The position numbers were made by a program, and so were the translations under genes. From positions 2,294,001 to 2,358,000 of the forward strand of contig NZ_JAPJZI010000001.1 of assembly GCF_027944115.1 (NCBI RefSeq): a stretch of DNA of 64,000 nt, in the 5' to 3' direction. The DNA comes from Hoeflea prorocentri. Its GTDB lineage: Bacteria; Pseudomonadota; Alphaproteobacteria; Rhizobiales; Rhizobiaceae. The notes under the pieces were generated by a model. The model was not told the origin of the DNA, did not search any database, and was given only the letters and a program-made list of their open reading frames with translations. Positions 23,696-41,312 of this stretch are shown here, one piece after another (the first letter of the stretch is position 1; each line of letters opens with the position of its first letter).

Positions 23696-25006
23696 TCAGA
23701 CATAACGGTTGACGACGTTTTCGAGATATTCCTGCTTGCCGGATCGCGGCTGCGGATTGATGTTTTCGGCCTCGACCCGAGCGGCAATGTCCTCCAATGA
23801 GCGTGAACCGGACAACATGCCCCAGTTCTCCTCAGCGCTCCATCCCGCATAGCGCTGATCGACAAAACCCGACAGGTCGCCATCCTCTATCATGGCAGCG
23901 GCTGCCTTGAGACCTCTTGCGCAACAGTCCATGCCGCCAATATGCGCAATCAGCAAATCTTCCGGATCAAGCGACTGCCGGCGAAGCTTTGCATCGAAAT
24001 TGGTTCCACCGGTTGAAAAGCCTCCGCCCTGCAGGATGTGGTAATAGGCCAAGGCCATTTCCGGGACATTGTTCGGGAACTGGTCGGTGTCCCAGCCGGA
24101 CTGGTAGTCGTTGCGATTCATGTCGATCGAGCCGAATATGCCCAGTGCATTTGCCGTTGCCAGTTCATGCTCGAATGAATGCCCCGCAAGGATCGCGTGC
24201 CCCTGCTCGATGTTGACACGAACCTCGTTTTCGAGGCCATAGCGCTTCAGGAAGCCGTAAACCGTCGCCACATCGTAGTCATACTGGTGCTTCGTCGGCT
24301 CCTGCGGTTTCGGCTCGATCAGGATTGTCCCGGCAAAACCGATCTTGTGTTTGTAGTCGACAACAAGGTTCAGGAACCGCCCGAGCTGGTCGAGTTCCCG
24401 GCCCATATCCGTGTTGAGCAGGGTTTCGTAGCCCTCGCGCCCACCCCACAGCACATAGTTCTCACCGCCCAGCCGGTGTGTCGCGTCAAGACATGTCTTG
24501 ACGGTGGCGGCACCAAAGGCAAAGACGTCCGGGTCCGGATTGGTCGCCGCACCGGCCATGTATCGGCGATTGGAAAAAAGGTTGGCCGTGCCCCACAGAA
24601 GTTTCAGCCCGGTGTCGGCCTGCTTGCCTTCAAAATAGTCCACGATCGCTTCGAGGTTCCGCGTGTTCTCCGCGAAATTCGCACCCTCGGGGCGCACATC
24701 GGCATCGTGGAAGCAGTAATAGGGAACGCCAAGCAGGGAGAACATTTCAAAGGCAACGTCAGCCTTCAGCCTGGCAGCCTCCATCGTGTCGTCAAACCAT
24801 GGGCGATCGAAGGTTTGTCCACCGAAGGGATCGAGGCCGGGCCAGCAGAAATTATGCCAATAGCAAACGGCAAAGCGCAGGTGATCTTCAAGGCGCTTTC
24901 CCATGACAATCTCATCGGGATTGTAGTGACGAAATGCAAGCGGGTTGCTGCTTTCCGGCCCCTCATAGGTGATCTTGCCGATATCTCCAAAAAAGCCGGT
25001 CGTCAT
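23696..25006 (-). CDS. xylA: Xylose isomerase
   Basis: Cytoplasmic metal-dependent isomerase of D-xylose to D-xylulose, 436 residues, the normal size of the class II enzyme. The catalytic His is in [13 protein letters not shown], and the signature blocks [11 protein letters not shown] and [18 protein letters not shown], plus [17 protein letters not shown], are intact. The ATG overlaps the xylB stop by 3 bases (ATGA), so translation is coupled. It ends the leftward xylF-xylH-xylG-xylB-xylA transcript. Confidence 0.97.
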
Positions 25007-26451
25007 CGTATTGTACTCCGTATGGCCGGGTATGTTTCCCGGTACTGTTGATATGCATCCTCATAGGCTTGACGCATCAGCGTCACCGGTTCGATGGACC
25101 GATCGACAGGCGGCGGCGTGCAGGACGCGAGCGATGCCCTGCCGGCCGCCAGCATGGCTAGCCGCGCCGCGCCGAACGCGGCACCCACATCGCCAGCGGC
25201 CGGTACGTCAATGGGAACGTTCAGCGCCGTGGCGATCGTACGCAGCCAGTAGTCGGATCGCGATCCGCCGCCGCTGGCTACAAGGCGCTCGATTCCCGTT
25301 CCCGTCGCCTGCAGCGCTTCAAGGCTGTCGCGGAAGGCAAAGGCGACGCCTTGAAGGATAGACGCCGTGATGGCGGCGGTATCCGTATCGAGTGAAACAC
25401 CGGTCAGAATACCCCTGATCGCTGCATCATTGTGCGGCGTGCGTTCACCGGACAGGTATGGAAGGAAAAGCCCTTGGGGTTCACGCAATGTCTCACCAAG
25501 CTCTTGTGTCAGGGATGCGGCCGATTTGCCCACAAGCGCGGCAAACCAGTTGAGACTGTCAGTTGCCGACAGGATTACGCCCATCTGGTGCCAGCGGTCC
25601 GGCAACGCATGGCAGAAGGCATGAACCGCACTTTCGGGCTCGGGACGGTAAACATCGTTTGCGGCGAAGATCACGCCGGATGTTCCAAGCGAAACGAAAG
25701 CCGAACCGTCGGCGATTGTGCCCATGCCCATGGCGGTCGCGGCATTGTCGCCTGCACCGCCGGCAACAACTGTGCCCGGCCGCATGCCCCATTCCATCGC
25801 GATCTCCAGGCGCAACGCGCCGCCGGCCTGGCTGCCCTCGACAAGGCGCGGCATCTGATCGGCGTCCATGGACGAGGCAGCCAGCAACTCGGCGGACCAA
25901 CGCCGATTGCCCACGTCAAGCCAGCTTGTGCCGGAGGCATCCGACATTTCAGATATATGTTCCCCTGTCAGCCACAGGCGCAGATAATCCTTCGGCAACA
26001 GGACCTTGGCGATTTTACTGAAGATGTCGGGTTCGTTGTTCTTCACCCAAAGCAGCTTTGGCGCGGTAAAGCCGGGAAAGACGATGTTCCCCGAAATCGC
26101 CCTGAACTTCGGATCGGCGTCAAGCTGCGCCGCCTCGGCGTGCGCGCGTGTATCGTTCCACAGCATACAGGGCCGCAGCACCCCATCATCCGCATCAATC
26201 AGGGTTGCGCCGTGCATCTGACCGGATAATCCGATGGCGCTGACCTCCGCCAGGGATACCGGGGACGTAACCTTGAGCTTTCCGACAGCACTTCGGGTTG
26301 CCTCAATCCAGTCCGCCGGGTCCTGCTCAGACCAGCCTGCCGACGGACGCGAAACCTTCAGATCCGCCGTCGCCGAGGCCACAATCTGCTGTTTATCATC
26401 GATAATCAGCGTCTTGACGCCGGATGTGCCAAGATCAATGCCGAGATACAT
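25003..26451 (-). CDS. xylB: Xylulokinase
   Basis: FGGY-family kinase, 482 residues, phosphorylating D-xylulose to xylulose-5-phosphate for the pentose phosphate pathway. N-terminal [18 protein letters not shown], the substrate-side [13 protein letters not shown], the ATP-binding [11 protein letters not shown], and [19 protein letters not shown] are typical. The frame runs to 26496, but ATG 26451 preceded by GGAGGAAAT is the evident start. There is a 97-bp gap to xylG. Confidence 0.96.
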
Positions 26452-26548
26452 ATTTCCTCCATCGGCGCTCAGGCACTGCGAGCCGTCTACCGCCATACAT
26501 GCCGTCTAACAGCACCCGGGTCTACCAAACGCCATCCCGCATATTGTC

Positions 26549-27337
26549 TCATGAAGACAGGGCGCCAGGCCCCGGCGTGGCGCCGGGCGGGCATTTGCCG
26601 AGAATGATCATTCCGAGCACCTCGTCCTTGTCCACATCACCCGTCTTGGCGTGCCCGACGACCTGGCCGTTCTTCATAACGGCAACGCGGTCCGCCAGAT
26701 CGAACACGTCGTGGATATCGTGACTGATGAGAAAGATGCCGATCCCCTCGGACTTCAACTGAAGGATCAGTTCCGAAACCTGCGCGGTTTCCTCCGGACC
26801 AAGAGCCGCCGTCGGCTCGTCCATGATAAGAATGCGGGCGTTGAACAGAATTGCGCGCGCAATCGCAACCGATTGCCGCTGCCCGCCCGAAAGCGCCTTG
26901 ACGGGATCCTTGAAGCGCTGGAAGCGCGGGTTGAGGCGGCCCATCACCTCGCGCGCCTTGGCTTCCATCGCGACATCGTCAAGCGTACCCCATGACGTCA
27001 GCAGCTCCCGCCCCAGATAGAGGTTCGCAGCCGTATCGACATTATCGGCCAGCGCCAGGGTCTGGTAGATCGTCTCGATCCCGTAGCCCTTTGCGTCGCG
27101 CGGATTGTCAATCGTCGCCGCGCTGCCATCGATGTGGATCTCGCCGGCATCGCGCTGATAGGCTCCCGAAAGGATCTTGATCAGTGTCGATTTACCGGCG
27201 CCATTGTGCCCAAGCAGTGCCACGACTTCCCCGGCGAACAGGTCCACCGATGCATCGTCCACGGCATGGATGCCGCCGAACGAGATTGAGATGTTGCGCA
27301 TATCAACCAGGGGCTGGATTTGATTGTTGGTGTTCAT
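26549..27337 (-). CDS. xylG: ATP-binding subunit of xylose ABC importer, single-domain
   Basis: A 262-residue ABC ATPase. Walker A is [15 protein letters not shown], the signature [15 protein letters not shown] and Walker [14 protein letters not shown]. Escherichia coli XylG and RbsA carry two nucleotide-binding domains (about 500 residues); this one has a single domain, as is common in Rhizobiales sugar importers. ATG 27337 is chosen over an upstream extension that would overlap xylH. Confidence 0.9.
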
Positions 27338-27354
27338 GATCGTTCTCCCCGCCC

Positions 27355-28677
27355 CTAGTGCTGCGATCTGCGGTAAAGCGAATCGAGCCACACCGCGATG
27401 ACCAGAACGATGCCGACAACGATGTTCTGCAATGGTGTGTCCACGCCCATGATCACCATGCCGGACTGTAGCGACTGCATGACAAGCGCACCGATCATGG
27501 CGCCGGCGATGGTGCCCACGCCACCGGCAAGGGATGTGCCGCCGATAACGGCTGCGGCAATCGTCAGCAGTTCATCAAGCGTTCCCTGCGCATTGGTGGC
27601 GGCGTTGAGGCGTGCCGTCGAAATCGCCGCAGCGATGGCGCACAACACACCCATGATGATGAAGATCTTCATCGTCACCCAGCGCGTGTTGATACCGGCC
27701 AGATCCGCCGCCTCGGGGTTCCCGCCCAGGGCGAACACATAACGTCCGAACCGCGTGCGTGTGGCAAGGAAGGTCATCACAATGCCGACGCCGATGGCGA
27801 CAAGGACGGGGACTGCGATGCCGTGCCCGATGAAGACCTCGGTCTCCGGTCCTTCGATTTGGCCGTCCCGGATCATTCTGCGCACGATGCCGATGGGATA
27901 ATAGTATATGTTCACGATGTAGACCGCGCCCAGAACGAGCACGCATCCGATACCTGCCAGGAAAGCTTCGGCCCAGACCGGACGCAGCGGGAACTGGAAC
28001 CGTTTACGCTGCCGGCGTGCAAAAGCGATCATCGCGACAATCGCAATGCAGGCGATCACACCCAGTATCCAGCTCGCATCGACACCGACGGAGCCTTTTG
28101 GCCCGCCACCCAAAAGGCGAAAAGTTTCATTCATCGGCGCGACGGTGCGGCCCGATGTAACCCACCAGGCAGCGCCGCGCCAAACCAGCAGGCCGCCGAG
28201 TGTCACAATGAACGCCGGAACGCCCCAATAGGCTATGACATAACCATGCAGCGCACCGATGGCCGCGCCCACCACAATGCCGACCGCAAGAGCGATGATC
28301 CATATGAAGGGGCTGTCGAAACCAATGATCTGAGGAAGGATTTCCGCCTGGGTCACCGCCATGATCATGCCGACAAAACCCAGGATCGAGCCGACGGAAA
28401 GATCGATGTTGCGTGTGACGATCACCAGAACCATGCCGGTCGCCATGACGGCGATGGACGCGGTCTGTACCGAAAGGTTCCACAGATTGCGCGGCGTCAG
28501 GAACAGTCCGCCGGAGAAAATATCGAACAGGATCCAGATCAGCAGCAGAGCGCCGATCATGCCGAGCATACGGGTGTCCAGTTCGGTGGCCTTGATGAAA
28601 CGTCCAACCGCGGACAATTCCGCGGCGCGTGCGCCGTCGGTTGTCTGGGCAGACTGAGAGTCCGTATTGCCGGTCAC
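27355..28677 (-). CDS. xylH: Permease subunit of xylose ABC importer
   Basis: Hydrophobic 440-residue inner-membrane permease of the ribose/xylose type with about ten membrane segments, for example [35 protein letters not shown] and [14 protein letters not shown], and the cytoplasmic [19 protein letters not shown] coupling segment. The likely start is GTG 28677 with GGGGGAG 5 bases upstream; the frame extends to 28713 without a better site. It follows xylF across a stem-loop and precedes xylG by 17 bp. Confidence 0.92.
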
Positions 28678-28703
28678 GGCCGCTCCCCCTTTATCTTGCA
28701 AAA

Positions 28704-28733
28704 GGCGCCGCAACCCGCAGGGATCGCGGCGCC
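28704..28733 (-). terminator. Stem-loop between xylF and xylH
   Basis: GGCGCCGC (28704-28711) and GCGGCGCC (28726-28733) form an 8-bp G+C stem with a 14-nt loop; on the coding strand the stem is followed by TTTTG. It probably attenuates or stabilises the transcript so that xylF is made in excess of the membrane subunits. Confidence 0.7.
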
Positions 28734-28757
28734 CATGTGCTCGCCAATGGCGTCATT

Positions 28758-29798
28758 TTAGTTACAGGCTGCGACCGTGCCTGCACCTACACCCTGGCAA
28801 ACCACGTCCTTGCCGACCCACCCGGCGTCGATCACGAGGTTCAGATTGTCCTTTGTGATCGGAACAGGTGCAAGGAAGATGGCGTTCATTTCGACGCCTG
28901 CCGGACCACCGGACCACTTAACAGAACCCGGAACATCCGACATGGACGTGCCATCGGCCAGAAGCGATGCGATCACAGCGGCGTTCTTGCCGAGTTCACG
29001 GGCATCCTTCCAGACCGAAACGGTCTGCGTGCCAAGTGCGACACGGTTCAACGCCGCATGATCGCCATCCTGTCCGGAAACCGGAACACTGCCATCCATG
29101 CCCTGAGCCGACAGGGCCGCCACAACGCCGCCCGCGGTGCCATCGTTGGAAGCGACAACCGCATCGATATTGTTATCGTTGGCGGTCAGGATCTGCTCCA
29201 TGTTCTTCTGGGCATTTTCCGGCTTCCAGCCATCGGTGTAGGCTTCACCGACATTCTTGACCTTACCGGCGTCCATGGCCTCCTTCAGCACTTCCATCTG
29301 ACCGGAAAACAGGAAATCCGCGTTCGGATCGGACGAGGAACCCTTGATGAAGGCGTAGTTGCCTTCCGGCATGGCGGCGAAGACAGCCCTTGCCTGCATG
29401 CGACCAACTTCCTTGTTGTCGAAGGTGATGTAGAACGCTTCCGGGTTCTCGATGAGCCGGTCATAACCGACGACCGGAATGCCTTCCGCGGAAGCCTTTT
29501 CAATCGCTGGCCCGATTGCTCCGGAATCCTGCGCAAGAATAATCAGCGCATCGGCGCCCTGGGAAATCAGCGATTCAACATCGGTGAGCTGTTTGGACGC
29601 TGACGACTGGGCATCCGCCGAGATGTATGTATTGCCGGCCGCCTCGATCGCAGCCTTCATAGCTGCCTCGTCGGTCTTCCAGCGTTCTTCCTGAAAGTTG
29701 GACCATGACACGCCGATGGTCTTGCCTTCAGCAAGCGCCATTCCGGTGGACGATGCAGCGAACACCGCACCGATGAGTGCGGCCTTAAGGATCTTCAT
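28758..29798 (-). CDS. xylF: Xylose-binding periplasmic protein
   Basis: A 346-residue sugar-binding protein of the ribose/xylose family. It has a signal peptide ([19 protein letters not shown], cleavage near ALA-EG), then a type I periplasmic fold with [56 protein letters not shown] and [15 protein letters not shown], a close match to the XylF pattern. ATG 29798 is preceded by GGGAGG. It is the first gene of the xyl operon and faces the ROK regulator. Confidence 0.95.
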
Positions 29799-29861
29799 TT
29801 GTACTACCTCCCAATGAATGAACCGGGGCGCCCTTACCCGTGCGACCGGCCCACGCTTGCA

Positions 29862-29888
29862 TTCGAGCCATTTAATTCGAGGCTCGAA
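29862..29888. promoter_or_regulatory. Palindrome between xylF and the ROK regulator: candidate XylR operator
   Basis: TTCGAGCC (29862-29869) and GGCTCGAA (29881-29888) are perfect 8-bp inverted arms with an 11-bp A+T-rich spacer, 64-90 bp upstream of xylF. A long spacer with symmetrical arms is usual for ROK-family operators. Confidence 0.7.
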
Positions 29889-30012
29889 AAAAATAGTGAC
29901 TTAATAGAAAAGCTGTGTCAACTTGAAATTTGCATCGAGATAAGTTGTTGTAATGCAGCAATTTATTTGCACTGCACTATACTGTGTTGTCGATTGGGAG
30001 GTTGTCGGGACA

Positions 30013-31251
30013 TTGGTTGAACTGGGTCGGTCGGACGATGTACGCAAGCGTAACCGCAGCCGCATTCTGCATGTCCTGCGTCGTAATGGCCCGGTTTCGA
30101 GGAAGGGTATCAGCGCAAGGACAGGCCTGAGCGCATCGACCGTATCGGCAATCACGTCAGAGCTGATCGACGAAACCGTCATCATTGCGACAGGCAGGGA
30201 TGATCCAACCAGTCTCGGTCGCGGCCGGCCGCAAATCCGCCTGGCGCTCAATCCCCGAGCCGCACTTGTCGCCGCCGTCATGGTGCAGCTCGACAATATA
30301 TCGGTTTGCATATCGGACTATTGCGGCGAGCGTGTTGCCGACGTTGACCGGGCTTTCCGGGCCCGCCGCGCCTCCCCGGACGGCTTCCGCAAGGCGTTGA
30401 TCGAAATGGTGCGCGAGGCGCTGCTGAAGGTTCCGGAAGGCTCAGGCGCGCTGAAACGCATGCGTCTGGGTGTACAGGGCGTCACGGATGTCGACGGCAC
30501 CTCGATGTTGTGGTCGCCCATCACTCCACATCGCGACCTCGCCTTCAAGGCTTATCTCGAACCGGTTTTTTCCGCACCGGTGCAACTCTCCAACGATTGC
30601 AGCATGATCGCCCGGGCGCTGCACTGGCGTGCGCCGGACCGCTTCAACAACAATTATGCCGCCGTCCTGCTTTCGCACGGTATCGGTATGGGCCTGATGC
30701 TGAACGGTGACCTTGTCAGCGGCATCCGCTCTTCCGGGACCGAATTCGGGCATCTGTCGCATATTCCCGATGGCGCGCTGTGCCGCTGTGGACGCCGGGG
30801 CTGCATCGAAGCCTATGCCGGCGACTACGCGATCCATCGACGGGCGCAGGCAACCGCGGAGACCGAAGCCCCCAGAAACGACATCAGCTATGATGAGATG
30901 GACGAGGTGTACCGCGCCGCACTCGGTGGGGACCAGGATGCCATTGCGGCCTATGCAGACGCCGGACGAGCCCTGGGAACCGGGCTTGCGGACATGTATG
31001 CCCTTGTCGATTCATTTCCCGTCGCGTTCGTCGGCCGTGGCACCCAGGCATTCGAGTTCATCGAAGAACCGCTTCGTGAAGCGATCAGCGCCACGAAACT
31101 GGACGTCATAGCTGACGAGATCGACATTCATTGCTTTCCGGACGAAAAGCCTTTGATTCTGGAAGGATGCACCGTTACAGCACTTTTGGAGGTGGATGAG
31201 ATGTTTGCGCACGCAACGCAAACGCGGGAGGTTGAGAAGAATGCTGTCTAG
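30013..31251 (+). CDS. ROK-family transcriptional regulator, probable xylose repressor
   Basis: A ~412-residue ROK regulator. The N-terminal winged helix (RKRNRSRILHVLRRNGPVSR, then GLSASTVSAITSEL) is followed by a sugar-kinase-like domain with the ROK zinc motif CRCGRRGCIEAYAG and SHGIGMGLMLNGDLVSG. The longest frame starts at ATG 29953 but adds an atypical 20-residue leader; a GGGAGG at 29996-30001 points to TTG 30013, so the start is uncertain. It is divergent from xylF across a palindrome, so a XylR role is likely. Its 3' end overlaps the di-haem cytochrome gene by 11 bp, which joins the two in translation. Confidence 0.87.
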   Translation: MVELGRSDDVRKRNRSRILHVLRRNGPVSRKGISARTGLSASTVSAITSELIDETVIIATGRDDPTSLGRGRPQIRLALNPRAALVAAVMVQLDNISVCISDYCGERVADVDRAFRARRASPDGFRKALIEMVREALLKVPEGSGALKRMRLGVQGVTDVDGTSMLWSPITPHRDLAFKAYLEPVFSAPVQLSNDCSMIARALHWRAPDRFNNNYAAVLLSHGIGMGLMLNGDLVSGIRSSGTEFGHLSHIPDGALCRCGRRGCIEAYAGDYAIHRRAQATAETEAPRNDISYDEMDEVYRAALGGDQDAIAAYADAGRALGTGLADMYALVDSFPVAFVGRGTQAFEFIEEPLREAISATKLDVIADEIDIHCFPDEKPLILEGCTVTALLEVDEMFAHATQTREVEKNAV

Positions 31252-32662
31252 TCGAGTTCTGTTGGCAGGCCTTACTCTTTTGTTGGCAACGTTGCCCGCA
31301 AACGCTGAAGACATGCCGCCCTGGTCGGAACGCACCATCGGGACACCCCCTGATCCGTCGCGTTTCAGCGGCACCCTTTCCCTGCAACTCCTCGAAGAAC
31401 TTGTCGATCGGGGAGAAACGCTCTTTACGGCAAAGTTCACGACGCTCGACGGCGCCGGCCGGCCGATGGCGACACAGGCCATCATCCCGACCCGCCGAAA
31501 ACGCCCCTCTCCTCAAATCTTTCAGCGCCTGCCCGGCGGCGATGCGAACGCCTGCTCGTCGTGCCACATTGATCCCGTCGTCGGCGGCGCCGGCGATTTT
31601 GTGACCAATGTCTTCGTTTCCGAGGGTTTCAACAACGCCGATTTCGACACCACCGACCCGCAATTCTCAAATGAACGCAACACAAACCATTTGATGGGTG
31701 CGGGTTTGGTCGAGCTTCTCGCCCGGGAGATGACGGCAACGCTGCAGGGTCAGCGAAAAGATGCCTTGAAAAAGGCCCGCCAGAACATAGAGCCGGTCAC
31801 CGCAAATCTTGTTGCCAAAGGCGTCGATTTTGGAGTGATCACCGCCTATCCGGACGGCACGGTCGATCTTGCCGGAATTGACGGTGTCGACACAGATCTC
31901 GTCATTCGACCCTTCAGCCAGAAGGGAGTCATCGGATCGCTGCGGCAGTTTACTGTCAATGCGCTTAATCATCATCACGGCATTCAGGCGGTCGAACGCT
32001 TCGGAAGCCGCTGGACGGGTACGGATGATTTTGACGGCGACGAGGTGGCCGATGAAATGAGCCCGGTGGATGTGTCGGCCCTTGTTGCCTGGCAGGCTGC
32101 GCGTGAGCCGCCCGTACAGATCGTACCTGACAACGCAGAATGGCGGGAACTGGCAAGCCAGGGTGAGACCATCTTTGGCGCGCTTGGCTGCAATACGTGC
32201 CACCGCCCGACCCTGCCGCTTGAAAGTCTGAAGTTCTCGGACCCCGGTCCGCTCGACGCGGCGGGAACGCTGAGGCAGGGCGAAACGCCGCATGGCGCAA
32301 TATATGATCTTGCCCTTTTTGATTGGGCAAAGAGCCTGCCTCGCGACGAGAACGGCGCGGTCCTTGTGCCGCTTTTCAGCGATCTCAAGCGACACAAGAT
32401 TGCCGACCAGCAGGTTTCCGCATTGGGCAATGAACTGCTTGGTCAGCGATTTGTCGATCGCGACGTCTTCAAGACGGCTGAGCTTTGGGGCATCGCATCG
32501 ACCGGCCCCTACGGCCACCGTGGCGATCAGACCACGCTCGATGAGATTATCCGCGTTCACGGGGGTAGCGGGAGAGACAGCCGCAATGCCTATATCGCGC
32601 TGCCGGAGGAAGACAAAACGGCTCTTATCGCATTCCTGAAAACTCTGGTGATCAAGCCATGA
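31241..32662 (+). CDS. Periplasmic di-haem cytochrome c, DUF1111/thiol-oxidoreductase-like
   Basis: A 473-residue exported protein: signal peptide MLSSRVLLAGLTLLLATLP with cleavage near ANA-ED, then two haem-c sites, CSSCH (near residue 107) and CNTCH (near residue 318). The C-terminal part (GPYGHRGDQTTLDEIIRVHG, then LPEEDKTALIAFLKTL) matches the end of DUF1111 di-haem proteins, relatives of the MauG/cytochrome c peroxidase group. ATG 31241 has GGGAGG upstream and lies inside the end of the ROK gene. It overlaps the next gene by 4 bp. Substrate and electron partner are unknown. Confidence 0.85.
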   Translation: MLSSRVLLAGLTLLLATLPANAEDMPPWSERTIGTPPDPSRFSGTLSLQLLEELVDRGETLFTAKFTTLDGAGRPMATQAIIPTRRKRPSPQIFQRLPGGDANACSSCHIDPVVGGAGDFVTNVFVSEGFNNADFDTTDPQFSNERNTNHLMGAGLVELLAREMTATLQGQRKDALKKARQNIEPVTANLVAKGVDFGVITAYPDGTVDLAGIDGVDTDLVIRPFSQKGVIGSLRQFTVNALNHHHGIQAVERFGSRWTGTDDFDGDEVADEMSPVDVSALVAWQAAREPPVQIVPDNAEWRELASQGETIFGALGCNTCHRPTLPLESLKFSDPGPLDAAGTLRQGETPHGAIYDLALFDWAKSLPRDENGAVLVPLFSDLKRHKIADQQVSALGNELLGQRFVDRDVFKTAELWGIASTGPYGHRGDQTTLDEIIRVHGGSGRDSRNAYIALPEEDKTALIAFLKTLVIKP

Positions 32663-34317
32663 AGAAAGAATTGCTGACCGCAGGCCTTGCCGTCCTTGCC
32701 GCAACTTTGCCGCTCAATGCTTCGGATGAAGAAACGGAGGCTGGCCTACCCCAGATGGACGTTCCGGTTTTTGCCGAGCAGGCGGCCGCCGCCGGGATCG
32801 ATCACAGTTACCAGGGGCCATGGGAGTATTTTGTCGGCGGCGGCGTTGCCGCGTTCGACTGCAACGGCGACCGTTATCCCGATCTGATGCTCGCCGGCGG
32901 AACCGGGCCGGTTCAGCTTTATGTGAATGAAAGCCAGGCAGCGGAGGGCTTGCGGTTTTCAAAACGCGATATCGCAGTCAGCCAGTCCGATCTTGAGAAG
33001 GTCACCGGCCTTTATCCGATCGATATCGACAATGATGGTTACAAGGATGTTGTCCTGTTGCGGGTCGGTCGCAATATCGTTCTCAAGGGCGGTCCCGACT
33101 GTACATTCGAGCCCGCCAACAAAGAATGGGCCATCGATGGCGGACGCGCCTGGACGACGGCCTTCGCCGCGACGTTCGAGGCAGACAACGCTTTTCCTAC
33201 CCTCGCATTCGGCAATTACGTCGATCGCTCGGCGCCGGGCTCGCCCTGGGGCACCTGCCACGACAATGTGCTGCTTCGGCCATCGGACGGCGAGCAACCG
33301 AGTTATGGCGAACCGTATGTGCTGACGCCGGGATTTTGCGCGCTGTCCATGATCTTTACCGACTGGAACCGTTCCGGCACCCCCGCTTTGCGGATCACCA
33401 ACGACCGCCACTATTACCGCGGCGGCGAAGAGCAATTGTGGCGGGTTGATCCGGGCAAACCGGCCCGGCTCTACCGGCGTTCGGACGGCTGGCGGCGTGT
33501 GAGCATCTGGGGCATGGGCATAGCGGAGGCCGATATCAACGCTGACGGATATCCCGAATACGCTCTGACATCCATGGGCGACACCAAGCTGCAAACGCTG
33601 GACGAAGAGGCGGAAGAAGGCAGGCCCGTTTATCGCGATATCGCCTATGAGCGAGGCGCAACGGCACACGTGCCCTATACCGGGTCTGAGAACAAGCCGT
33701 CGACCGGCTGGCATACCGAATTTGCCGACTTCAACAATGACGGGGAGCTCGATCTATACATCGCAAAGGGCAATGTGGAGGCCATGCCGGACTTTGCATC
33801 CTTTGACCCGGACAATCTGCTTCTTGGTGCCCATGACGGGTCTTTCGTCGAAACGGGCCATCTTGCCGGCATTGATCTGGACCGGCGCGGGCGCGGCGCG
33901 GCAATCGTGGATTTCGATCTGGATGGCTATCTCGACCTGTTGGTTGTCAACCGCGAAGCGCCGGTCAGCCTGTTCCACAATCGCGGCGGGCGGACTGAAT
34001 GGGGAACGCGGCCAATGGGCAACTGGCTGCAGATTGAACTGAGCCAGGACGGCGACAATCGCAACGCGGTGGGTGCGACAATCCTGGTAAAATCCGGAAA
34101 CGAGACGCGCTCGCGCCGCATACAATCGGGCGGTGGCCATGCCTCGGGCCATTCGGGCTTCATCCATGTGGGCACCGGTGTTGCCGAACGCGCGCAAATC
34201 CGGGTGCAGTGGCCGGACGGAGAATGGAGTGCTCCGTACCGGGTTTTCGCCAACAATTTTGTCATGATCGAGAAAGGTGCCACAGAGGCCCGATACTGGT
34301 ATCCGGCACAGCACTAA
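32659..34317 (+). CDS. Exported CRTAC1/FG-GAP repeat protein with ASPIC-UnbV domain
   Basis: A 552-residue secreted protein with signal peptide MKKELLTAGLAVLAATLPL. Several calcium-loop FG-GAP/VCBS-type repeats are visible: FDCNGDRYPDLMLAGG, PIDIDNDGYKDVVLLRVG, AEADINADGYPEYALTS, FADFNNDGELDLYIAKGN and VDFDLDGYLDLLVVN. The last ~110 residues (NWLQIELSQDGDNRNAVGAT, then QSGGGHASGHSGFIHVG) form an ASPIC/UnbV domain. Such proteins fold as beta-propellers and often accompany redox or TonB systems; activity is generally unknown. The ATG overlaps the cytochrome stop (ATGA), so the two products are made together. Confidence 0.87.
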   Translation: MKKELLTAGLAVLAATLPLNASDEETEAGLPQMDVPVFAEQAAAAGIDHSYQGPWEYFVGGGVAAFDCNGDRYPDLMLAGGTGPVQLYVNESQAAEGLRFSKRDIAVSQSDLEKVTGLYPIDIDNDGYKDVVLLRVGRNIVLKGGPDCTFEPANKEWAIDGGRAWTTAFAATFEADNAFPTLAFGNYVDRSAPGSPWGTCHDNVLLRPSDGEQPSYGEPYVLTPGFCALSMIFTDWNRSGTPALRITNDRHYYRGGEEQLWRVDPGKPARLYRRSDGWRRVSIWGMGIAEADINADGYPEYALTSMGDTKLQTLDEEAEEGRPVYRDIAYERGATAHVPYTGSENKPSTGWHTEFADFNNDGELDLYIAKGNVEAMPDFASFDPDNLLLGAHDGSFVETGHLAGIDLDRRGRGAAIVDFDLDGYLDLLVVNREAPVSLFHNRGGRTEWGTRPMGNWLQIELSQDGDNRNAVGATILVKSGNETRSRRIQSGGGHASGHSGFIHVGTGVAERAQIRVQWPDGEWSAPYRVFANNFVMIEKGATEARYWYPAQH

Positions 34318-34321
34318 AAAA

Positions 34322-34349
34322 GGGGTAGCTCGGCGCGATGAGCTACCCC
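34322..34349. terminator. Stem-loop after the CRTAC1 gene
   Basis: GGGGTAGCTC (34322-34331) and GAGCTACCCC (34340-34349), a 10-bp perfect stem with an 8-nt loop, begins 4 bp after the CRTAC1 stop. Read rightward there is no T-run; read leftward it is followed by seven T. It probably ends the ROK-cytochrome-CRTAC1 transcript but is strongest as a terminator of opposite-strand transcription. Confidence 0.6.
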
Positions 34350-34467
34350 CTATCGAGCTATCTGGCAGCGGGACTCGCTGCCGGATCGCCGAACGCATTG
34401 CCTTGCACCGTTGCGGTGCCAGGAAGGACAATGATGTCACTCCCTGTGTTTTTTCGTTTCAGCAGCT

Positions 34468-34487
34468 TCGATTCGAAAACGAATCGA
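34468..34487. promoter_or_regulatory. 20-bp palindrome upstream of the beta-helix gene
   Basis: TCGATTCG-AAAA-CGAATCGA, perfect 8-bp arms with a 4-bp centre. It lies about 35 bp upstream of the A+T-rich promoter-like stretch. A regulator binding site or a short hairpin; no matching regulator can be named. Confidence 0.5.
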
Positions 34488-34692
34488 GACAAATCCGAAA
34501 ATATTTCACATATATGATATTTGCAATATTTGATTGCAATCGAGATACAATACAAAACGAAAGTATAAGAAGACCATACAGCCCCAATACTTCGTAACCA
34601 TAACATTCGATGGATACGGTCCGCTGCTTGCCAAAGCAGACCACCGATGCAACATTTCAACCACAGATAAAGACAAGCAAATCGGTCGCGAG

Positions 34693-36303
34693 ATGGCGGT
34701 AGAAAGAGCCAATCCCTCAAATGTCGCCAAACGCTGCCGCAAGCTGCGCGCAGGCGACAGGATCATTCTTGAAGAAGGTGTCTACAGGCAGCCGCTGGTT
34801 CTGACGGGCCTTGCCGGCACGGCTCGCGCTCCCATCGTGATTGAGGCGGAAACGGGCGCCGTGTTTACCAGCGGTCTTTCACGGAAGAAATACGGCAAAC
34901 AGGCAAACCTCATTGCCATGCGCAGGCAGGCCGCGGGTTACTATCCGAGCGTCGGCCAGACGGCTGACGAAGCCACGCTCGCGTTCATTCACTGCCGGCA
35001 TGTCATTGTGCGCGGCCTGAACTTCCTGCGCTGCTGGCCGACGGCCGTCTATCTGGAAGAATGCCAGCATATGAGGCTTGAAGAACTCAGTTTTCGGGAA
35101 GGAACCATCGCAATTGGCGCGAATGGCCTAACCACCCGCGATATCCTTGTCAGCAAATGCGACTGGAAACAGGATGTCAGCGACGACAATGAGATGTGGA
35201 ACACAATACCGTGGCGCCGTGTCCACGGATCGAAACAGAACACCGACGGTATTCCGGTCGATCCGGAAGGCGACTATCGCGCCTGGGACGGTGATTTTTT
35301 CCGCGCCTGGGATGTGGCGGGCAACATCGTTATCCGGGACAACACAATCTCGGATGCATTCAACGCGATCCATTTTTTCAACCGTATCGATCAGCTTGCG
35401 CCGGGCGTCGATGCAATACAATTAAACTTCAACAATGGCCGCCGCGCCTCCGCCAATATTCTTATCGAAGGCAATACATTCACCCGCATACGCGACAACG
35501 CTATCGAGCCTGAGGATTACGCCTGGAACTGGGTGATCCGGCACAATACATTTGCCGATTGTTACCGCCCGTTTTCTCTTGAACTGCAGCGCGCCGGCTG
35601 GTTCTACATCTACGGCAATGTGGGGTGGGTGAACAATCCGCCAAGCATGCTACCGGAGCCCGGCGACCGGACAAAGTGTTCCCATTTCAAGCTTGGCGGC
35701 GCTCAGAAGAATGAGGGCCCGATCCACGTCTTTTTCAATTCCTGGTACTACCGCAAAGGCAAGGGCATCTTCCCCAAAGGCGCGCTCGGCAGGCTGAGGC
35801 ATTTCAACAACGCCATCGGATTCGGCAATCCGGCCAAGGCACAGATGTTCGGAAAAACCGGTTCCCTGAAGTGGCTGGAAGATGATCTCGGCAATCATTT
35901 TACCCGGCAGTGGGACGCGGAACACTACGACATCATCTTTGATGGCGACCTTTGCGAAGACAGCAATTTCCCGGACGGTTTCAGGTCATTGGGTTTTGAA
36001 CTTGGAGAAAACTCGAAGGCAGGCTCGCCCAGTTTTGCCCACCCGGAGTCGGCCCAGCCAAACCTGCGCATCGGATCCGATTCTGCCGGTTTCAAAACCG
36101 CAATCGCGATGCTCATCGAACTGCCGGACGGCAGCGGAATTTCTGTCCCGGCGGGCAGAAATATAGGCGCTCATCAGGAAGACGGGGTTTACGATCCCAT
36201 CGACCGCGCGTTTGCCTTTTTGCCGGAGGCGACCGGCGATGCTAGCCAGAATAAACAGGACGATGATGAAGACGGCGACAAGCCCGGTCTTCTGCTCTTC
36301 TAG
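34693..36303 (+). CDS. Right-handed parallel beta-helix repeat protein
   Basis: A ~536-residue protein (from ATG 34693) rich in short beta-helix coils, such as HVIVRGLNFLRCWPTAVYLE, NIVIRDNTISDAFNAIHFFN, NILIEGNTFTRIRDNAIE and WVIRHNTFADCYRPFSLELQ. The beginning (KLRAGDRIILEEGVYRQPLV) is the usual entry to such helices in polysaccharide lyases and mannuronan epimerase-like proteins. No signal peptide is visible from either ATG 34534 or ATG 34693, which is odd for a lyase. The C-terminal tail is acidic and polar (QDDDEDGDKPG). It ends overlapping nagA by 4 bp, convergent. A polysaccharide-acting role is possible but not shown. Confidence 0.75.
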   Translation: MAVERANPSNVAKRCRKLRAGDRIILEEGVYRQPLVLTGLAGTARAPIVIEAETGAVFTSGLSRKKYGKQANLIAMRRQAAGYYPSVGQTADEATLAFIHCRHVIVRGLNFLRCWPTAVYLEECQHMRLEELSFREGTIAIGANGLTTRDILVSKCDWKQDVSDDNEMWNTIPWRRVHGSKQNTDGIPVDPEGDYRAWDGDFFRAWDVAGNIVIRDNTISDAFNAIHFFNRIDQLAPGVDAIQLNFNNGRRASANILIEGNTFTRIRDNAIEPEDYAWNWVIRHNTFADCYRPFSLELQRAGWFYIYGNVGWVNNPPSMLPEPGDRTKCSHFKLGGAQKNEGPIHVFFNSWYYRKGKGIFPKGALGRLRHFNNAIGFGNPAKAQMFGKTGSLKWLEDDLGNHFTRQWDAEHYDIIFDGDLCEDSNFPDGFRSLGFELGENSKAGSPSFAHPESAQPNLRIGSDSAGFKTAIAMLIELPDGSGISVPAGRNIGAHQEDGVYDPIDRAFAFLPEATGDASQNKQDDDEDGDKPGLLLF

Positions 36304-37478
36304 TTGCCGGACGGTCCTTCGCAACTGAAGACACACTCCCCGGCGATCCAGACATTTTCGACCGTCAGGGCATCGGACAAATGCACCAGGTTTGCGGTCG
36401 CGCCTTTTCCCAGGTGCCCGTGTCGATCATCCGCGCCAAGTGCGCGCGCCGGATAGAGTGATGCCATTTTCAGCGCCTCATCGACCCGCAGCCCGACCTT
36501 CTGGACCAGAAACCGTACCGATGCGATCATGTCGATATCCGCTCCGGCGAGGGTTCCGTCGTCCAGCGTCAAGCGCCCGTCTACCCGATGCACGGTGCGC
36601 CCGTTCAGTGTGAAGGATTGCTGATCGGTGCCGATGCAGGACATGGCGTCGGTGACAACAAACAGCCTGCCCGGTTCTGCCTTGCCTCTGATGGCAATGC
36701 CAAGGCTTTCCGGCGCAACATGGATACCGTCGGCAATCAGCCCCGCATGGACGGATGGTTCCGACAGAGCCGCACCCACCATGCCCGGCTCGCGATGACT
36801 GAGGGGGCTCATGGCATTGAACAGATGCGTAAACATCGAAGCCCCGACCATGACCATCTCACGCGCGGTCTGGCAATCGGCATTGCTGTGCCCGAGACTG
36901 ATCTTGATGTTGGCCTCACTCAAGGTGCGGATCTGATCTGTGGTGACGGCTTCCGGAGCAACGGTAACGAGCAGGTGCGGAATTTTTCTTTGCGCATCCA
37001 GCAGCCTTGCCACATCGTCCCGTCCGGCGGGGCGGACGAGGTCCGCATCGTGTGCGCCCCGCCGCTCGACCGACAGATGCGGTCCCTCCAGGTGAAGGCC
37101 GAGAAAACCGGCGATCTCATCCTTCGCTGCACCGGCAGCGGCGGCGATTGCCTTTTCCGTCATCTCCGGCGTGTCGGTGATAAGCGTCGGCAGCAATGCG
37201 GTCGTTCCGAACCGCGCATGCGCCGTGCAAATGGTTCGAATGGTCTCGATGCTCGGATCGTCGTTCAGCAGGACACCGCCGCCGCCATTGACCTGCAGGT
37301 CGACAAACCCCGGCGCCAGGAAGCCGCTCTCAAGCCGCGACAAAGCCACATCCGCCGGGATTTGCGATACGGGGACAATATCCGTGACAGTTCCCGACTG
37401 ATACAGAACTGCCGCCTGTGAATGCCAGGTCGAACCGTCAAAGATCACCGGCGCTTCGATCGCTGTGTGTTGCGTCAT
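36300..37478 (-). CDS. nagA: N-acetylglucosamine-6-phosphate deacetylase
   Basis: A 392-residue amidohydrolase that removes acetate from GlcNAc-6-phosphate. Active-site blocks are complete: FVDLQVNGGGGV, LHLEGPHLS, LGHSNADCQTA, THLFNAMSPL, GLIADGIHV and FVVTDAMSCIG with the catalytic Asp. The ATG overlaps the SIS-protein stop by 4 bp. It ends the leftward kinase-regulator-deaminase-deacetylase operon. Confidence 0.95.
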   Translation of the reverse strand: MTQHTAIEAPVIFDGSTWHSQAAVLYQSGTVTDIVPVSQIPADVALSRLESGFLAPGFVDLQVNGGGGVLLNDDPSIETIRTICTAHARFGTTALLPTLITDTPEMTEKAIAAAAGAAKDEIAGFLGLHLEGPHLSVERRGAHDADLVRPAGRDDVARLLDAQRKIPHLLVTVAPEAVTTDQIRTLSEANIKISLGHSNADCQTAREMVMVGASMFTHLFNAMSPLSHREPGMVGAALSEPSVHAGLIADGIHVAPESLGIAIRGKAEPGRLFVVTDAMSCIGTDQQSFTLNGRTVHRVDGRLTLDDGTLAGADIDMIASVRFLVQKVGLRVDEALKMASLYPARALGADDRHGHLGKGATANLVHLSDALTVENVWIAGECVFSCEGPSGN

Positions 37479-38494
37479 GTGGTCTCGGTCACCTTGCTGA
37501 GTTTGTCCGGGCTGTCGGGATCCAGCCCGATTGTCCGCGCCAGTCTCTCGACAAATCCGTAAAACGGAACAATCAGAGCCAACGCGTCCGTCAACGGATG
37601 ACCCGTTGCTATAAAGGGAAGTCGCCGGGCCGTCATCGTCTTTTCGGAAGTGATGTAGACCTTGGCTCCGTCGCCGGCCAGCTTGTCAGCCGTCGAAACT
37701 ATAGATGCTTCCGCCGCATCCCGGGCCGTCAAAACCAAAACCGGAAAACCACCCCCAACCAGAGAGACCGGGCCGTGCAATACTTCCGCTGCGCTATAGG
37801 CTTCGGCGTGCAGATTGCAGGTCTCCTTGCATTTGAGCGCCGCCTCATGGGCAACCGCCAGCGCCGGCCCGCGACCGAGTATATAAAGCGACTGGCCGGT
37901 TTGCGGATCGGAAAAAATGGATGGCCAGTTCGTGCGCACCGCCTTGCTCAACTGCTCGGGCAACTGCCTGAGCGCCCGCTCCAGCGCTTCATCCCGAGAC
38001 CAGGCCGATACGACGAGCAAGCCGGCAAGGATCGAATTTACAACACTCTTTGTCGCCGCCACTGCGAATTCTGTGCCGGCCCGGATATCAATGCGGATAT
38101 CGCTGCCGACGGCGAGTGGTGAACCGGCATTGTTCGTCAGCGACATGGTCAGAGCGCCCCCCTGCCCGGCAGCGTTTTGCAGCGCCACGATATCCGGGCT
38201 TTGGCCGGACTGTGACACTGACAGACAAAGTGCATTGTCAAGTTTAAGCCGAGTGCCATAGATCGAAGCGATGGAAGGACCGACCGAGGCGACGGCCAGC
38301 CCCAGTTGCAGTTCGATGGCGTATTTCAAGAACGCCGCCGCGTGGTCGGAAGACCCGCGGGCCACAGAGACCACGAAGCCAGGCTTGCGTTCCCGCAACG
38401 AGCGGCCGATTTCGCCCAGATCAGGCGACAGTCCGTCCAGCAGCCTTTGTGCCGCATCCGGTATCTCGTCGATCTCCGCTCGCATTTTTGTCAT
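37475..38494 (-). CDS. Double-SIS-domain protein, probable glucosamine-6-phosphate deaminase (NagB-II type)
   Basis: A 339-residue protein with two SIS phosphosugar domains, equivalent to the isomerase half of GlmS without the glutaminase. Sugar-phosphate-binding patterns are VSVARGSSDHAAAFLKYAI, LCLSVSQSGQSPDIVALQ and LGRGPALAVAHEAALKCKE followed by AEAYSAAEVLHGP. It replaces the classical NagB, which is absent from the operon, and should convert GlcN-6-phosphate to fructose-6-phosphate and ammonia. AgaS-like deaminase of galactosamine-6-phosphate is the alternative; the GlcNAc/MurNAc context favours the former. Confidence 0.87.
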   Translation of the reverse strand: MTKMRAEIDEIPDAAQRLLDGLSPDLGEIGRSLRERKPGFVVSVARGSSDHAAAFLKYAIELQLGLAVASVGPSIASIYGTRLKLDNALCLSVSQSGQSPDIVALQNAAGQGGALTMSLTNNAGSPLAVGSDIRIDIRAGTEFAVAATKSVVNSILAGLLVVSAWSRDEALERALRQLPEQLSKAVRTNWPSIFSDPQTGQSLYILGRGPALAVAHEAALKCKETCNLHAEAYSAAEVLHGPVSLVGGGFPVLVLTARDAAEASIVSTADKLAGDGAKVYITSEKTMTARRLPFIATGHPLTDALALIVPFYGFVERLARTIGLDPDSPDKLSKVTETT

Positions 38495-38533
38495 TTGGTT
38501 TCTCCGGCGCGACAGGGCGCACGCAACGGCATC

Positions 38534-39304
38534 TCAGCCCTTCCCGATTGTCAGTTCGGCGACAAAATCATAGGCATCGCCGCGATAAAGCGACCGGGTG
38601 AACTCCACCACCCTTCCCGACTCAAGATAGGATATGCGCTCAATCCGCAAACCCGCATCACCGGCTTCAACGCCAAGAAGTTCGGCATCTTCGGCGCGCA
38701 AATTGGTGGCGGATATGCGCTGGAGGGCGCGAACCGGCCGGTGCCCGTGTGCCTCCAACACTGCGTAGAGAGATACGTCAACGAGATCGGGATCGGGCAG
38801 CAACTGCGCAGATATCGAGGCCCGCTCGATTGCCAATGGCATTGCATCAGCGATGCGCAGGCGCTCAATGCGAGAGACTTCATCTCCCGGAGCAAGACCG
38901 AGTGAGACCATCTCCTCCGGCGAAGGCGCAAACCTGCCGCGCGTCAACCAGCGCGACTGTGCGTGCCATCCGCGCCGGGTCATATCCTCGGTGAAAGAGG
39001 TCAGCCGCGACAATGGCTGCTCGACCCGCGCCACCGGTTTGGACACGAAAGTTCCCGACCCATGGCGCTGGACGAGAATGCCGTCTTTCACAAGATCCTG
39101 TACGGCCTTGCGCACCGTGACCCGTGATACGTCGGCAAGTTCGGCGATATCGCGCTCCGACGGCAGCGCGTCGCCATCGGTCAGCAGACCTTCATCAATT
39201 GCCTTTTCAACCCGGTTCCGCAGCTTCAGATAAAGCGGACCGCTGCCCATCGCCAAGGCATTCTCACCGGCAAAGATCGTATGGAAACGCTCAGACACGG
39301 ACAT
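38534..39304 (-). CDS. GntR-family (HutC/NagR-type) regulator of amino-sugar genes
   Basis: A 256-residue regulator with an N-terminal GntR winged helix (LPSERDIAELADVSRVTVRK, HGSGTFVSKPV) and a C-terminal UTRA effector domain (RWLTRGRFAPSPEEMVSLGL, SYLESGRVVEFTRSLYRGDA). UTRA regulators of this type sense GlcN-6-phosphate or GlcNAc-6-phosphate. It overlaps the kinase gene by 14 bp. The paired TGGTATT-type repeats before both divergent operons are its likely operators. Confidence 0.92.
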   Translation of the reverse strand: MSVSERFHTIFAGENALAMGSGPLYLKLRNRVEKAIDEGLLTDGDALPSERDIAELADVSRVTVRKAVQDLVKDGILVQRHGSGTFVSKPVARVEQPLSRLTSFTEDMTRRGWHAQSRWLTRGRFAPSPEEMVSLGLAPGDEVSRIERLRIADAMPLAIERASISAQLLPDPDLVDVSLYAVLEAHGHRPVRALQRISATNLRAEDAELLGVEAGDAGLRIERISYLESGRVVEFTRSLYRGDAYDFVAELTIGKG

Positions 39305-40172
39305 CTCCAGTCATAAGAAACCGTTGGCGCGCGAGTTGGGCGGCCCCGTCCAGCGCATCACCCTGTGCCGGGACGATCCGCGCCCTGTGCTTGTCGGCAA
39401 GCCATGGTTCGTACGGGCCGGCCAATCCTCCAAGCAGGCAGAGACGCTGAAGCTCTGTCCCCACCATCGCATCGATAAACGCATCGATCTGACCGGCAGC
39501 CTCAACGATGATTGCGGTGGCAACGGGATCGTTGCGCTGCGCATATTCAAAGACCATCGGTGCATATCGGGCAAATGCGCCCGGCGGTGCGCCATGGGCA
39601 TAAGCAACCACCTTTTGCGGCTCCCCGCCAAACTCCGAGAAAAGGCGCCCGGTCACGTCCGACGCTGGTCCGACGCCGTCATGGGCCAATAGCGTCCGCC
39701 GCATCAGCTCTTGCCCCAAGGCCGCGCCGCTGCCCTGATCGCCGACGACAAAGCCCCAACCGCCGATCGTGCGAACCGATGACCCCTGCTTGGCTGCGAA
39801 CACCGCGCCCGTTCCGATGATCGCAACGACCCCGTCCGCCTCTCCCAGTGCACCGTGCACCGCAATTAATGCGTCGCTTTCGATCTCACAGCGGCGAAAC
39901 GGAAGCCGGCCGCGCAGCGCCTCGACGCTGGCGTCCATATTGGCGCCAGCAAGCCCGAGCAGAACATCCATGGAGGAAAGCTCACCGCGAAGCCCGGCGT
40001 CATCACACGCCCGCTGCGCGGCCTCGATAATATGACGGACCCCGCCATTCATATCAGTCAGGATATTCGCGGCGCCGCTCTTGCCCGTTCCGCTGACCAC
40101 TCCGTCACGCCCGGTCAGAGCAGCTCGGCAACTGGTTCCACCACCGTCAATTCCTATGACATGCGCCGTCAT
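39291..40172 (-). CDS. BadF/BadG-type N-acetylglucosamine or MurNAc kinase
   Basis: A 293-residue ASKHA-fold kinase. Phosphate-binding and ATP motifs are VIGIDGGGTSCRAAL, VAIIGTGAVFAAKQG, GFVVGDQGSGAALGQELMR and LCLLGGLAGPYEPWL. Family members phosphorylate GlcNAc (mammalian-type NagK) or both MurNAc and GlcNAc (clostridial MurK). Since murQ is encoded divergently and requires MurNAc-6-phosphate, and the importer is ABC-type and so does not phosphorylate, a dual-specificity kinase is attractive. ATG 40172 with GGGAGAG upstream is preferred over the longer frame. Confidence 0.85.
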   Translation of the reverse strand: MTAHVIGIDGGGTSCRAALTGRDGVVSGTGKSGAANILTDMNGGVRHIIEAAQRACDDAGLRGELSSMDVLLGLAGANMDASVEALRGRLPFRRCEIESDALIAVHGALGEADGVVAIIGTGAVFAAKQGSSVRTIGGWGFVVGDQGSGAALGQELMRRTLLAHDGVGPASDVTGRLFSEFGGEPQKVVAYAHGAPPGAFARYAPMVFEYAQRNDPVATAIIVEAAGQIDAFIDAMVGTELQRLCLLGGLAGPYEPWLADKHRARIVPAQGDALDGAAQLARQRFLMTGDVRV

Positions 40173-40192
40173 TATTCTCTCCCTCACCATAT

Positions 40193-40210
40193 AATACCAA
40201 TAAAATACCA
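40193..40210 (-). promoter_or_regulatory. TGGTATT direct repeat before the kinase operon
   Basis: On the minus strand TGGTATT-TTAT-TGGTATT, two identical 7-mers 11 bp apart (one helical turn), 21-38 bp upstream of the kinase ATG. It mirrors the site before murQ. Confidence 0.7.
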
Positions 40211-40324
40211 TTAACCAAGAGGGTCTGAGAGATATTTTCTTTTGATTTTATCTAGTTGTTTTTACTTATTATATTTTCGCATTCGGAAAACATGGTTAAT
40301 TTTTCTCCCGCCTTGCTGGACAAT

Positions 40325-40342
40325 TGGTATTTTTTTGGCATT
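40325..40342 (+). promoter_or_regulatory. TGGTATT direct repeat before murQ
   Basis: TGGTATT-TTTT-TGGCATT, the same 11-bp-period repeat with one mismatch, 22-39 bp upstream of the murQ ATG and in the same orientation relative to its gene as the site before the kinase. Confidence 0.7.
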
Positions 40343-40363
40343 ATTGATTGCGCGGAGGAAGCG

Positions 40364-41296: not shown

Positions 41297-41312
41297 CAAC
41301 TGGGAGAAAACC

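Follow-up and report, generated by a model that had tools for sequence, protein, structure and literature searches.

In this study, we analysed a stretch of 64,000 nucleotides from Hoeflea prorocentri (contig NZ_JAPJZI010000001.1; hereafter the window), in which the genes for a XylR-like ROK repressor, a di-haem cytochrome and a CRTAC1 protein overlap one another beside genes of xylose uptake and catabolism. Parts of this arrangement recall described systems. Fungal tandems join a class II haem peroxidase to a copper radical alcohol oxidase that is itself a propeller. As far as the accessible passages of one study describe it, the peroxidase of such a tandem is secreted and activates the oxidase encoded by the neighbouring gene (PMC9770985), and our locus likewise has neighbouring genes for a peroxidase-class protein and its partner. 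It differs from the tandem in that no copper-radical motif was recognised, the type of peroxidase is exchanged between genomes and the genes lie with those of xylose uptake. Di-haem enzymes may also mature their partners, as MauG does with methylamine dehydrogenase and MbnH with MbnP. Here, too, a di-haem enzyme of the same superfamily stands beside a probably periplasmic partner, but it scores far below the cut-offs of both families, the partner is a beta-propeller, and a haloperoxidase homologue can take the place of the di-haem enzyme.

Passages of two papers describe in hydrazine synthase a seven-bladed propeller and a MauG-like di-haem subunit that carries a bis-His haem (PMC12758564, PMC12607021), and one of these papers places a CRTAC1 family gene beside MauG-like homologues of hydrazine synthase, with ABC substrate-binding genes downstream in one clade (PMC12758564). 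Our locus shares with the synthase and these homologues a MauG-like di-haem protein, probably with a bis-His haem, a seven-bladed propeller, a CRTAC1 family gene in the cluster and, as in that one clade, a substrate-binding gene of an ABC transporter nearby; the proteins and the chemistry are different ones, and a xylose link is not reported in those passages. With bacterial XylFHG/ROK xylose loci it has the transporter, the repressor and XylA/XylB in common. Vertebrate CRTAC1 is an extracellular animal protein with, to our knowledge, no enzyme function, and we know of no chemistry assigned to CRTAC1-type propellers from bacteria to vertebrates. A description of a CRTAC1-peroxidase module tied to xylose was not found in the literature searched, in which subscription papers were thinly covered. 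A propeller that stays with the xylose genes while its peroxidase partner is exchanged points to an undescribed oxidation step, tied to xylose use, outside the cell membrane.

CRTAC1, its exchanged partners and the xylose genes

Across the genomes compared, CRTAC1 is the constant part of the system and its redox partner is exchanged. Our order survey drew on 249 genomes from the order to which the window belongs. It is assumed to be one and the same draw in the searches for cytochrome, XylF and CRTAC1 (cut-off for the latter two, E up to 1e-60), which found the cytochrome in 29, XylF in 84 and CRTAC1 in 53. The gene adjacent to CRTAC1 encodes the cytochrome in 26 of these 53 genomes (reading as two pieces in one of them, G895), a vanadium-haloperoxidase homologue in 8 and a CcP/MauG-type di-haem protein, convergent with CRTAC1 in 7/8, in a further 8; altogether, one of the three peroxidase-class genes lies directly beside CRTAC1 in 42/53. 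On these counts the cytochrome was ruled out as the constant partner. Partners are also found elsewhere in the genome, the cytochrome in two more cases (L093 and L101, with CRTAC1 at L183 and L184) and a CcP-class gene in five more (57-61% identical in G831, G942 and G905, 49% in G924 and 44% in G785). A survey at the level of the phylum found CRTAC1 in 12/249 genomes and added nine, namely six with the CcP-class partner, one with the haloperoxidase, one with the cytochrome, and G591, which has no adjacent partner and no haloperoxidase or CcP-class match, the cytochrome not having been searched for genome-wide there. A haloperoxidase search over nine genomes, run without a positive control, was empty. 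As a control, we inspected 20 xylF loci without CRTAC1 (18 from genomes lacking CRTAC1 and two from genomes with CRTAC1 elsewhere), and, unlike the window locus, none (0/20) carries any of the three partners. A 375-aa frame with two CxxCH motifs in one of them (L207) was rejected as an out-of-frame reading over xylH.

Judged from the sequences of 100 CRTAC1 proteins, partner type follows CRTAC1 clades. Their tree, a quick one with several long branches, requires 7 changes of the partner label, compared with a mean of 37.6 after shuffling. Haloperoxidase-type CRTAC1 proteins form one side of a branch, and the 13 CcP-type rows group with five rows that have no adjacent partner, four of which have a CcP-class gene elsewhere.

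The association of CRTAC1 with xylose genes is well supported; the chemistry that we attach to it below would be a reading of that association. XylF was found in 51/53 genomes with CRTAC1 versus 33/196 without (Fisher p 6e-28), six of these 33 matches being only 39-43% identical, and in 29/29 genomes with the cytochrome versus 55/220 others (Fisher p 5e-16); both p values ignore relatedness. CRTAC1 lies among xyl genes in 44/53 genomes of the order survey, which bears out the earlier proposal of a tie between the pair and xylose genes, and elsewhere in an XylF-bearing genome in eight, one fragment (G907) falling outside this count. The two CRTAC1 genomes without XylF are G907 and G785, in the latter of which CRTAC1 adjoins xylB and xylA but lacks a portion of its conserved region. 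The xylF homologues are 59-93% identical, both in xyl-linked loci, where they neighbour CRTAC1, and in genomes that carry the two genes apart. A second set was obtained by scanning one genome per species with the CRTAC1 of the window, which yielded 46 loci, with Oricola and Hoeflea species among those represented. Since its search patterns derived from the window's protein, this sample favours close relatives. In this contig set, the cytochrome is adjacent in 36 loci and the haloperoxidase homologue in 7, and three partial genes have no partner in view (L043, L045, L046). The fetched stretch includes xylF, xylA or xylB in 29/46. Among the 17 loci without xyl genes in view, eight lie on stretches ended by a contig end (L018, L030, L033, L035, L037, L043, L045, L046), and XylF, 64-74% identical, is present in 12/12 genomes tested. 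The genome of the window also encodes a second XylF homologue (49% identity; G000:C1:3321508-3322518).

Gene order around the module varies widely. The window has xylFHG divergent from ROK-cytochrome-CRTAC1; elsewhere, ROK is divergent from xylFHG-cytochrome-CRTAC1 (L110, L125-L127) or from cytochrome-CRTAC1-xylFHG (L094), and we also found the orders xylB-xylA-cytochrome-CRTAC1-xylFHG (L124), xylB-xylA-CRTAC1-xylFHG on one strand (L166 and L169; L168 as far as xylF) and, in another class of the phylum, xylB-xylA-xylFHG-CRTAC1-haloperoxidase (L196). CRTAC1 may be directly divergent from xylF (L171, L178) or follow xylG (L110, L117, L125-L127, L164, L167, L196), and in G070 and G433 it is the cytochrome that is divergent from xylF, with CRTAC1 elsewhere in the genome. 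ROK coupling is therefore only one of several arrangements, and the xylose link outlasts rearrangement. The preliminary description had tied the pair to the ROK gene itself; ROK was ruled out as the constant partner by the orders without this coupling, and the tie is to the xylose locus, since CRTAC1 keeps the company of xyl genes in those orders as well. L095 has the cytochrome beside xylB and xylA, with no CRTAC1 in sight. The stretches fetched around more distant cytochrome homologues (L102 and L103; 35-39% identity) and around long DHOR-like proteins (L096, L097 and L104) contain neither CRTAC1 nor xyl genes.

The partner proteins and the conserved face of CRTAC1

The cytochrome of the window carries two CxxCH motifs (C105-H109 and C317-H321, read by eye) and, like CRTAC1, a signal-like N-terminus (also read by eye), from which both proteins are probably exported. 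Both motifs and residues P423, G425, H426 and H440 are invariant in 34/34 aligned cytochromes, and Y424 is kept in at least 90%. Its pair of CxxCH motifs, together with a PYxHxG module near the C-terminus that is common to CcP, MauG and MbnH, assigns it to the CcP/MauG di-haem superfamily, and its profile matches include 1iqc (1.1e-4), 6e1c (2.6e-4), 1nml and 1eb7. The match to DHOR (PF06537; 33.2 bits against a gathering cut-off of 22) covers only residues 406-469, at profile positions 430-499, and with 22.4 and 23.2 bits against NCBIfam cut-offs of 443.85 and 362.85 the protein falls far short of the MauG and MbnH models, respectively. In bacterial CcP, the axial ligand on the C-terminal haem is a Met. 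The invariant His440 aligns at or beside this position, which sets the cytochrome apart from bacterial CcP proper and makes a bis-His C-terminal haem probable.

Of the other two partners, the haloperoxidase homologue is represented by L163, which matches PAP2 (44.8 bits) and 4cit (8e-79 over residues 51-433). The residues of the vanadate-binding motif of vanadium haloperoxidases are known, and the aligned motif in this one example (KxxxxxxRP, SGH and SRMYGGIH) argues for vanadium-haloperoxidase homology. The CcP/MauG-type partner scores 118 bits with CCP_MauG and 272 bits with the MauG-like model TIGR03981, below its cut-off of 340, and has the C-terminal module in common with the cytochrome (45% over 31 residues). 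The haloperoxidase homologue belongs to a different fold family from both di-haem classes. In seven Rhodobacter/Tabrizicola-type records (L035-L041), a run of haloperoxidase homologue and CRTAC1 lies away from xyl genes, and in 6/7 of them an FAD amine-oxidase-like gene is found upstream of this run (L037 ends there).

CRTAC1 itself matches FG-GAP_3 (77.3 bits) and UnbV_ASPIC (35.9 bits), both above cut-off, and is modelled as a seven-bladed propeller (mean pLDDT 86.0, pTM 0.88) whose best fold match is murine CRTAC1 (9etn; TM 0.67, 19% identity); this shared propeller and ASPIC fold assigns it to the CRTAC1 family. The match to aldos-2-ulose dehydratase (4a7k, Foldseek rank 2) was taken as one of fold only, within the same VCBS propeller superfamily. 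Thirteen residues never vary in the 100 CRTAC1 proteins (C68, C148, W165, Y187, C200, C227, R245, M286, M306, W351, K370, M376 and R412); R250, Y252 and E258 vary solely through a deletion in L180, and H352 is kept in 99/100, no other His of the propeller being near-invariant. The sole substitution of H352 is in L199, from G591, where neither a haloperoxidase nor a CcP-class match was found; as a single case this is only suggestive. Excluding G, P, D, N, A and C, 29 propeller residues are invariant, of which 18 fall in the 98 positions of the top face, 11 in 244 remaining positions and none in the 69 that make up the A-B hairpins at the bottom (Fisher p 6e-6), the top face being our own definition as strand-A starts and strand-B ends on predicted strands. 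The near-invariant face set comprises W165, Y187, N248, D249, R250, Y252, M286, M306, D308, W351, K370, N372, M376, R412 and R432, with R245 and H352 close by. We take this face for a putative active or cofactor site, which may line a three-dimensional pocket.

Two cofactor types were considered for such a site. The galactose oxidase type has a kelch propeller with Tyr, Tyr, His and His as copper ligands and a Cys-Tyr link; CRTAC1 does not fit this type of copper radical oxidase, as no kelch domain was reported and H352 is the only near-invariant propeller His. PQQ is unlikely as a general cofactor of CRTAC1: PqqC occurs in 9/61 genomes with CRTAC1, in 8/19 without and not in that of the window. 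PQQ may be taken up from outside.

Proposed function and competing explanations

That three peroxidase-class enzymes can replace one another beside a constant protein whose face is conserved suggests a need of CRTAC1 for an oxidising partner. The reading that we tentatively favour, at a probability of roughly 0.42, is a redox module of the periplasm, linked to xylose, whose peroxidase-class enzyme activates or matures CRTAC1. The constant part would be the propeller protein CRTAC1, whose gene lies in the locus of xylose uptake and catabolism or accompanies it, and the second part would be a co-encoded DHOR-like cytochrome, vanadium-haloperoxidase homologue or CcP/MauG-type protein. This enzyme would draw electrons from the CRTAC1 pocket, with H2O2 as the final oxidant; the withdrawal of electrons would activate or mature CRTAC1, which would then act, ahead of XylFHG uptake or alongside it, on xylose or a sugar that contains xylose. 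The pocket, the contact of the two proteins, the direction of electron flow, the use of H2O2 and the sugar substrate are all proposed here on the strength of these comparisons. Activation or maturation is favoured because of the precedents of the fungal tandem, MauG/MbnH and the hydrazine-synthase homologues, by analogy with which it may apply here. A bolder form, in which CRTAC1 would be a new class of periplasmic sugar oxidoreductase with a self-derived or radical cofactor in its propeller pocket, switched on by exchangeable peroxidases of unrelated fold, would make the module a bacterial counterpart of the fungal oxidase-peroxidase tandems inside a xylose uptake locus and would give the widespread CRTAC1 family its first enzymatic role; it appears doubtful to us.

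Several observations weigh against the favoured reading. CRTAC1 and its listed residues are retained in G850, G876 and G918, of one genus, although no partner of any of the three classes was found in these genomes (G918 is 71% complete); L166, L168 and L169 also keep these residues without a known partner, which counts against a simple rule linking residues to partner. A metal, flavin or quinone site was not recognised in CRTAC1, and R245 and H352 fall just outside the face as we defined it. The peroxidase class of the cytochrome is assigned from haem motifs and the C-terminal profile match, because its AlphaFold model is poor (pLDDT 63) and the best fold matches, to CcPs, are weak (E 0.07 or worse). 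We know of no vanadium haloperoxidase that matures proteins. All survey counts are drawn from related genomes, and eight loci (L012, L013, L021, L034, L111, L112, L114, L115) have the cytochrome-CRTAC1 pair outside the neighbourhood of xyl genes. The preliminary description had held that a pair widely found beside unrelated genes would make its link to the repressor accidental; such placements do occur, as this minority, but the genomes concerned all have XylF.

The exchange of partners could also be that of scavengers. If CRTAC1 itself were a sugar oxidase producing H2O2, any peroxidase that removes H2O2 might serve beside it, and partners of different folds indeed have, by family, only the use of peroxide in common. 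The non-adjacent CcP-class genes of five genomes would suit a scavenger and the conserved face looks like that of an enzyme; yet an oxidase cofactor motif was not recognised in CRTAC1, and the tight overlap of cytochrome and CRTAC1 genes in 50/60 pairs exceeds what a scavenger needs. We consider this explanation unlikely. In the converse arrangement, the peroxidase would be the catalyst, acting on an outside substrate such as a glycan that contains xylan or methyl-xylose, or a phenolic attached to such a glycan, and CRTAC1 would be a sugar-binding scaffold. Its invariant Trp/Tyr and Arg/Lys residues would fit sugar binding, and VCBS propellers include lectins as well as aldos-2-ulose dehydratase, the second-ranked structure above, according to the passages seen of one paper (PMC8023676). 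Conservation of these residues across three partner classes is, however, stricter than expected for a mere binding face, and it is a less simple account that a single glycan should be the substrate of enzymes with different folds. We consider the scaffold unlikely as well, but keep both it and scavenging as serious rivals to activation.

A role without any sugar substrate, in which the pair guards the periplasm against peroxide or disposes of electrons while the cell grows on xylose, draws on the peroxidase-class families of every partner and on the adjoining xylose genes. It leaves the constant CRTAC1 with its conserved face unexplained, and the control loci, xylF-bearing and free of these peroxidases, speak against it; we hold such a role to be quite improbable. 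That the pair merely hitch-hikes with the xylose locus as an accidental neighbour might be read from the sporadic distribution of the cytochrome, whose profile was found in 8/385 genomes of the class (two of them distant partial matches) and 9/398 of the phylum (three distant). Against this, the xylose link is kept in several gene orders, and genomes whose CRTAC1 stands apart from the xyl genes nevertheless encode XylF, in 12/12 tested of the contig set and 8/8 of the order survey; we consider chance association very improbable.

Should the favoured reading, activation of CRTAC1 by its peroxidase-class partner, be true, xylose use would gain an oxidative step in the periplasm. The xylose-tied subfamily with its peroxidase partners offers a testable handle on the function of such propellers, and different peroxidases exchanged around one constant partner are evidence on their common chemistry.

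The window locus, its control region and its surroundings

The features of the locus are listed in Table 1. The five xyl genes (23696-29798) are divergent from the ROK-cytochrome-CRTAC1 genes, and the presence of both an HTH and a ROK domain identifies the first of these as a ROK repressor, which scores below the equivalog cut-offs of Mlc and NagC.

Table 1. Features of the xylose-linked CRTAC1 locus, in window coordinates
Feature	Coordinates	Strand	Remarks
xylA, xylose isomerase	23696..25006	-	
xylB, xylulokinase	25003..26496	-	
xylG-like ATPase	26549..27391	-	
xylH-like permease	27355..28713	-	
xylF, xylose-binding protein	28758..29798	-	divergent from ROK
62-bp block in xylF-ROK gap	29865..29926	.	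near-identical in 7/7 aligned loci
ROK-family repressor (XylR-like)	30013..31251	+	first of three overlapping genes; Pfam ROK 97.1 bits, HTH_24 28.1 bits
Di-haem cytochrome, CcP/MauG superfamily, DHOR-like, probably exported	31241..32662	+	start 11 bp inside ROK
CRTAC1 protein, probably exported; seven-bladed FG-GAP/VCBS beta-propeller and ASPIC/UnbV domain	32659..34317	+	

The overlaps first noted in the preliminary description hold on re-examination. The ATG of the cytochrome at 31241 is preceded by GGGAGG ending 9 nt upstream, and CRTAC1 overlaps the cytochrome by 4 bp (ATGA, 32659-32662). The ROK start is the TTG at 30013, as had been given; an upstream ATG at 29953 is also in the open frame. 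The coupling is conserved. For the second overlap, the same 4 bp give the closest possible start in 50/60 non-redundant cytochrome-CRTAC1 pairs, and in 43 loci where ROK is directly upstream the distance from its stop codon to a possible start of the cytochrome is mostly no more than a few tens of bp. We infer, in keeping with the preliminary description, that the pair may be expressed jointly with the repressor and may oxidise or sense sugar.

A separate promoter between the genes would have spoken against joint expression. A simple scan of 29750-34600 saw none (0 promoter-like sites versus 2.1 in shuffles), but it also missed any promoter of ROK or xylF. A promoter picked by eye in the conserved xylF-ROK block was dropped, being unsupported by the scan. 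Within this 62-bp block, at 29876-29888, lies the palindrome TTCGAGGCTCGAA, the sole exact copy in the window, which with 0-2 mismatches occurs at most 400 bp upstream of xylF in 28/78 loci; by locus type, it was found in 26/50 with the cytochrome, 2/8 with the haloperoxidase, 0/12 of CcP type and 0/8 without a partner. From this pattern it is likely the ROK operator of the window's lineage. It is nearer to xylF than to ROK, and control of the ROK-cytochrome-CRTAC1 side is thus only putative. An operator common to all partner types was discarded, since the palindrome is also absent (at up to 2 mismatches) upstream of CcP-class genes; its absence from CcP-type loci says little, because the repressors of those loci have diverged.

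Directly 3′ of CRTAC1, a strong hairpin of 11-12 bp followed by a T run on the minus strand (34320-34351) resembles a terminator. The module is adjoined by a gene for a right-handed beta-helix protein (34534-36303, plus strand), weakly chondroitinase-B-like (Pfam 26.0 and 24.2 bits), with a homologue at the same place in L003-L006. Beyond it, at 36300-46509, lies an amino-sugar block (nagA, SIS isomerase, GntR, BadF kinase, murQ-like and a sugar ABC transporter, named by eye), partly kept beside the module in close relatives, and at 4027-11107 the window holds an apparent myo-inositol catabolism cluster of iol-type genes, likewise judged by eye.

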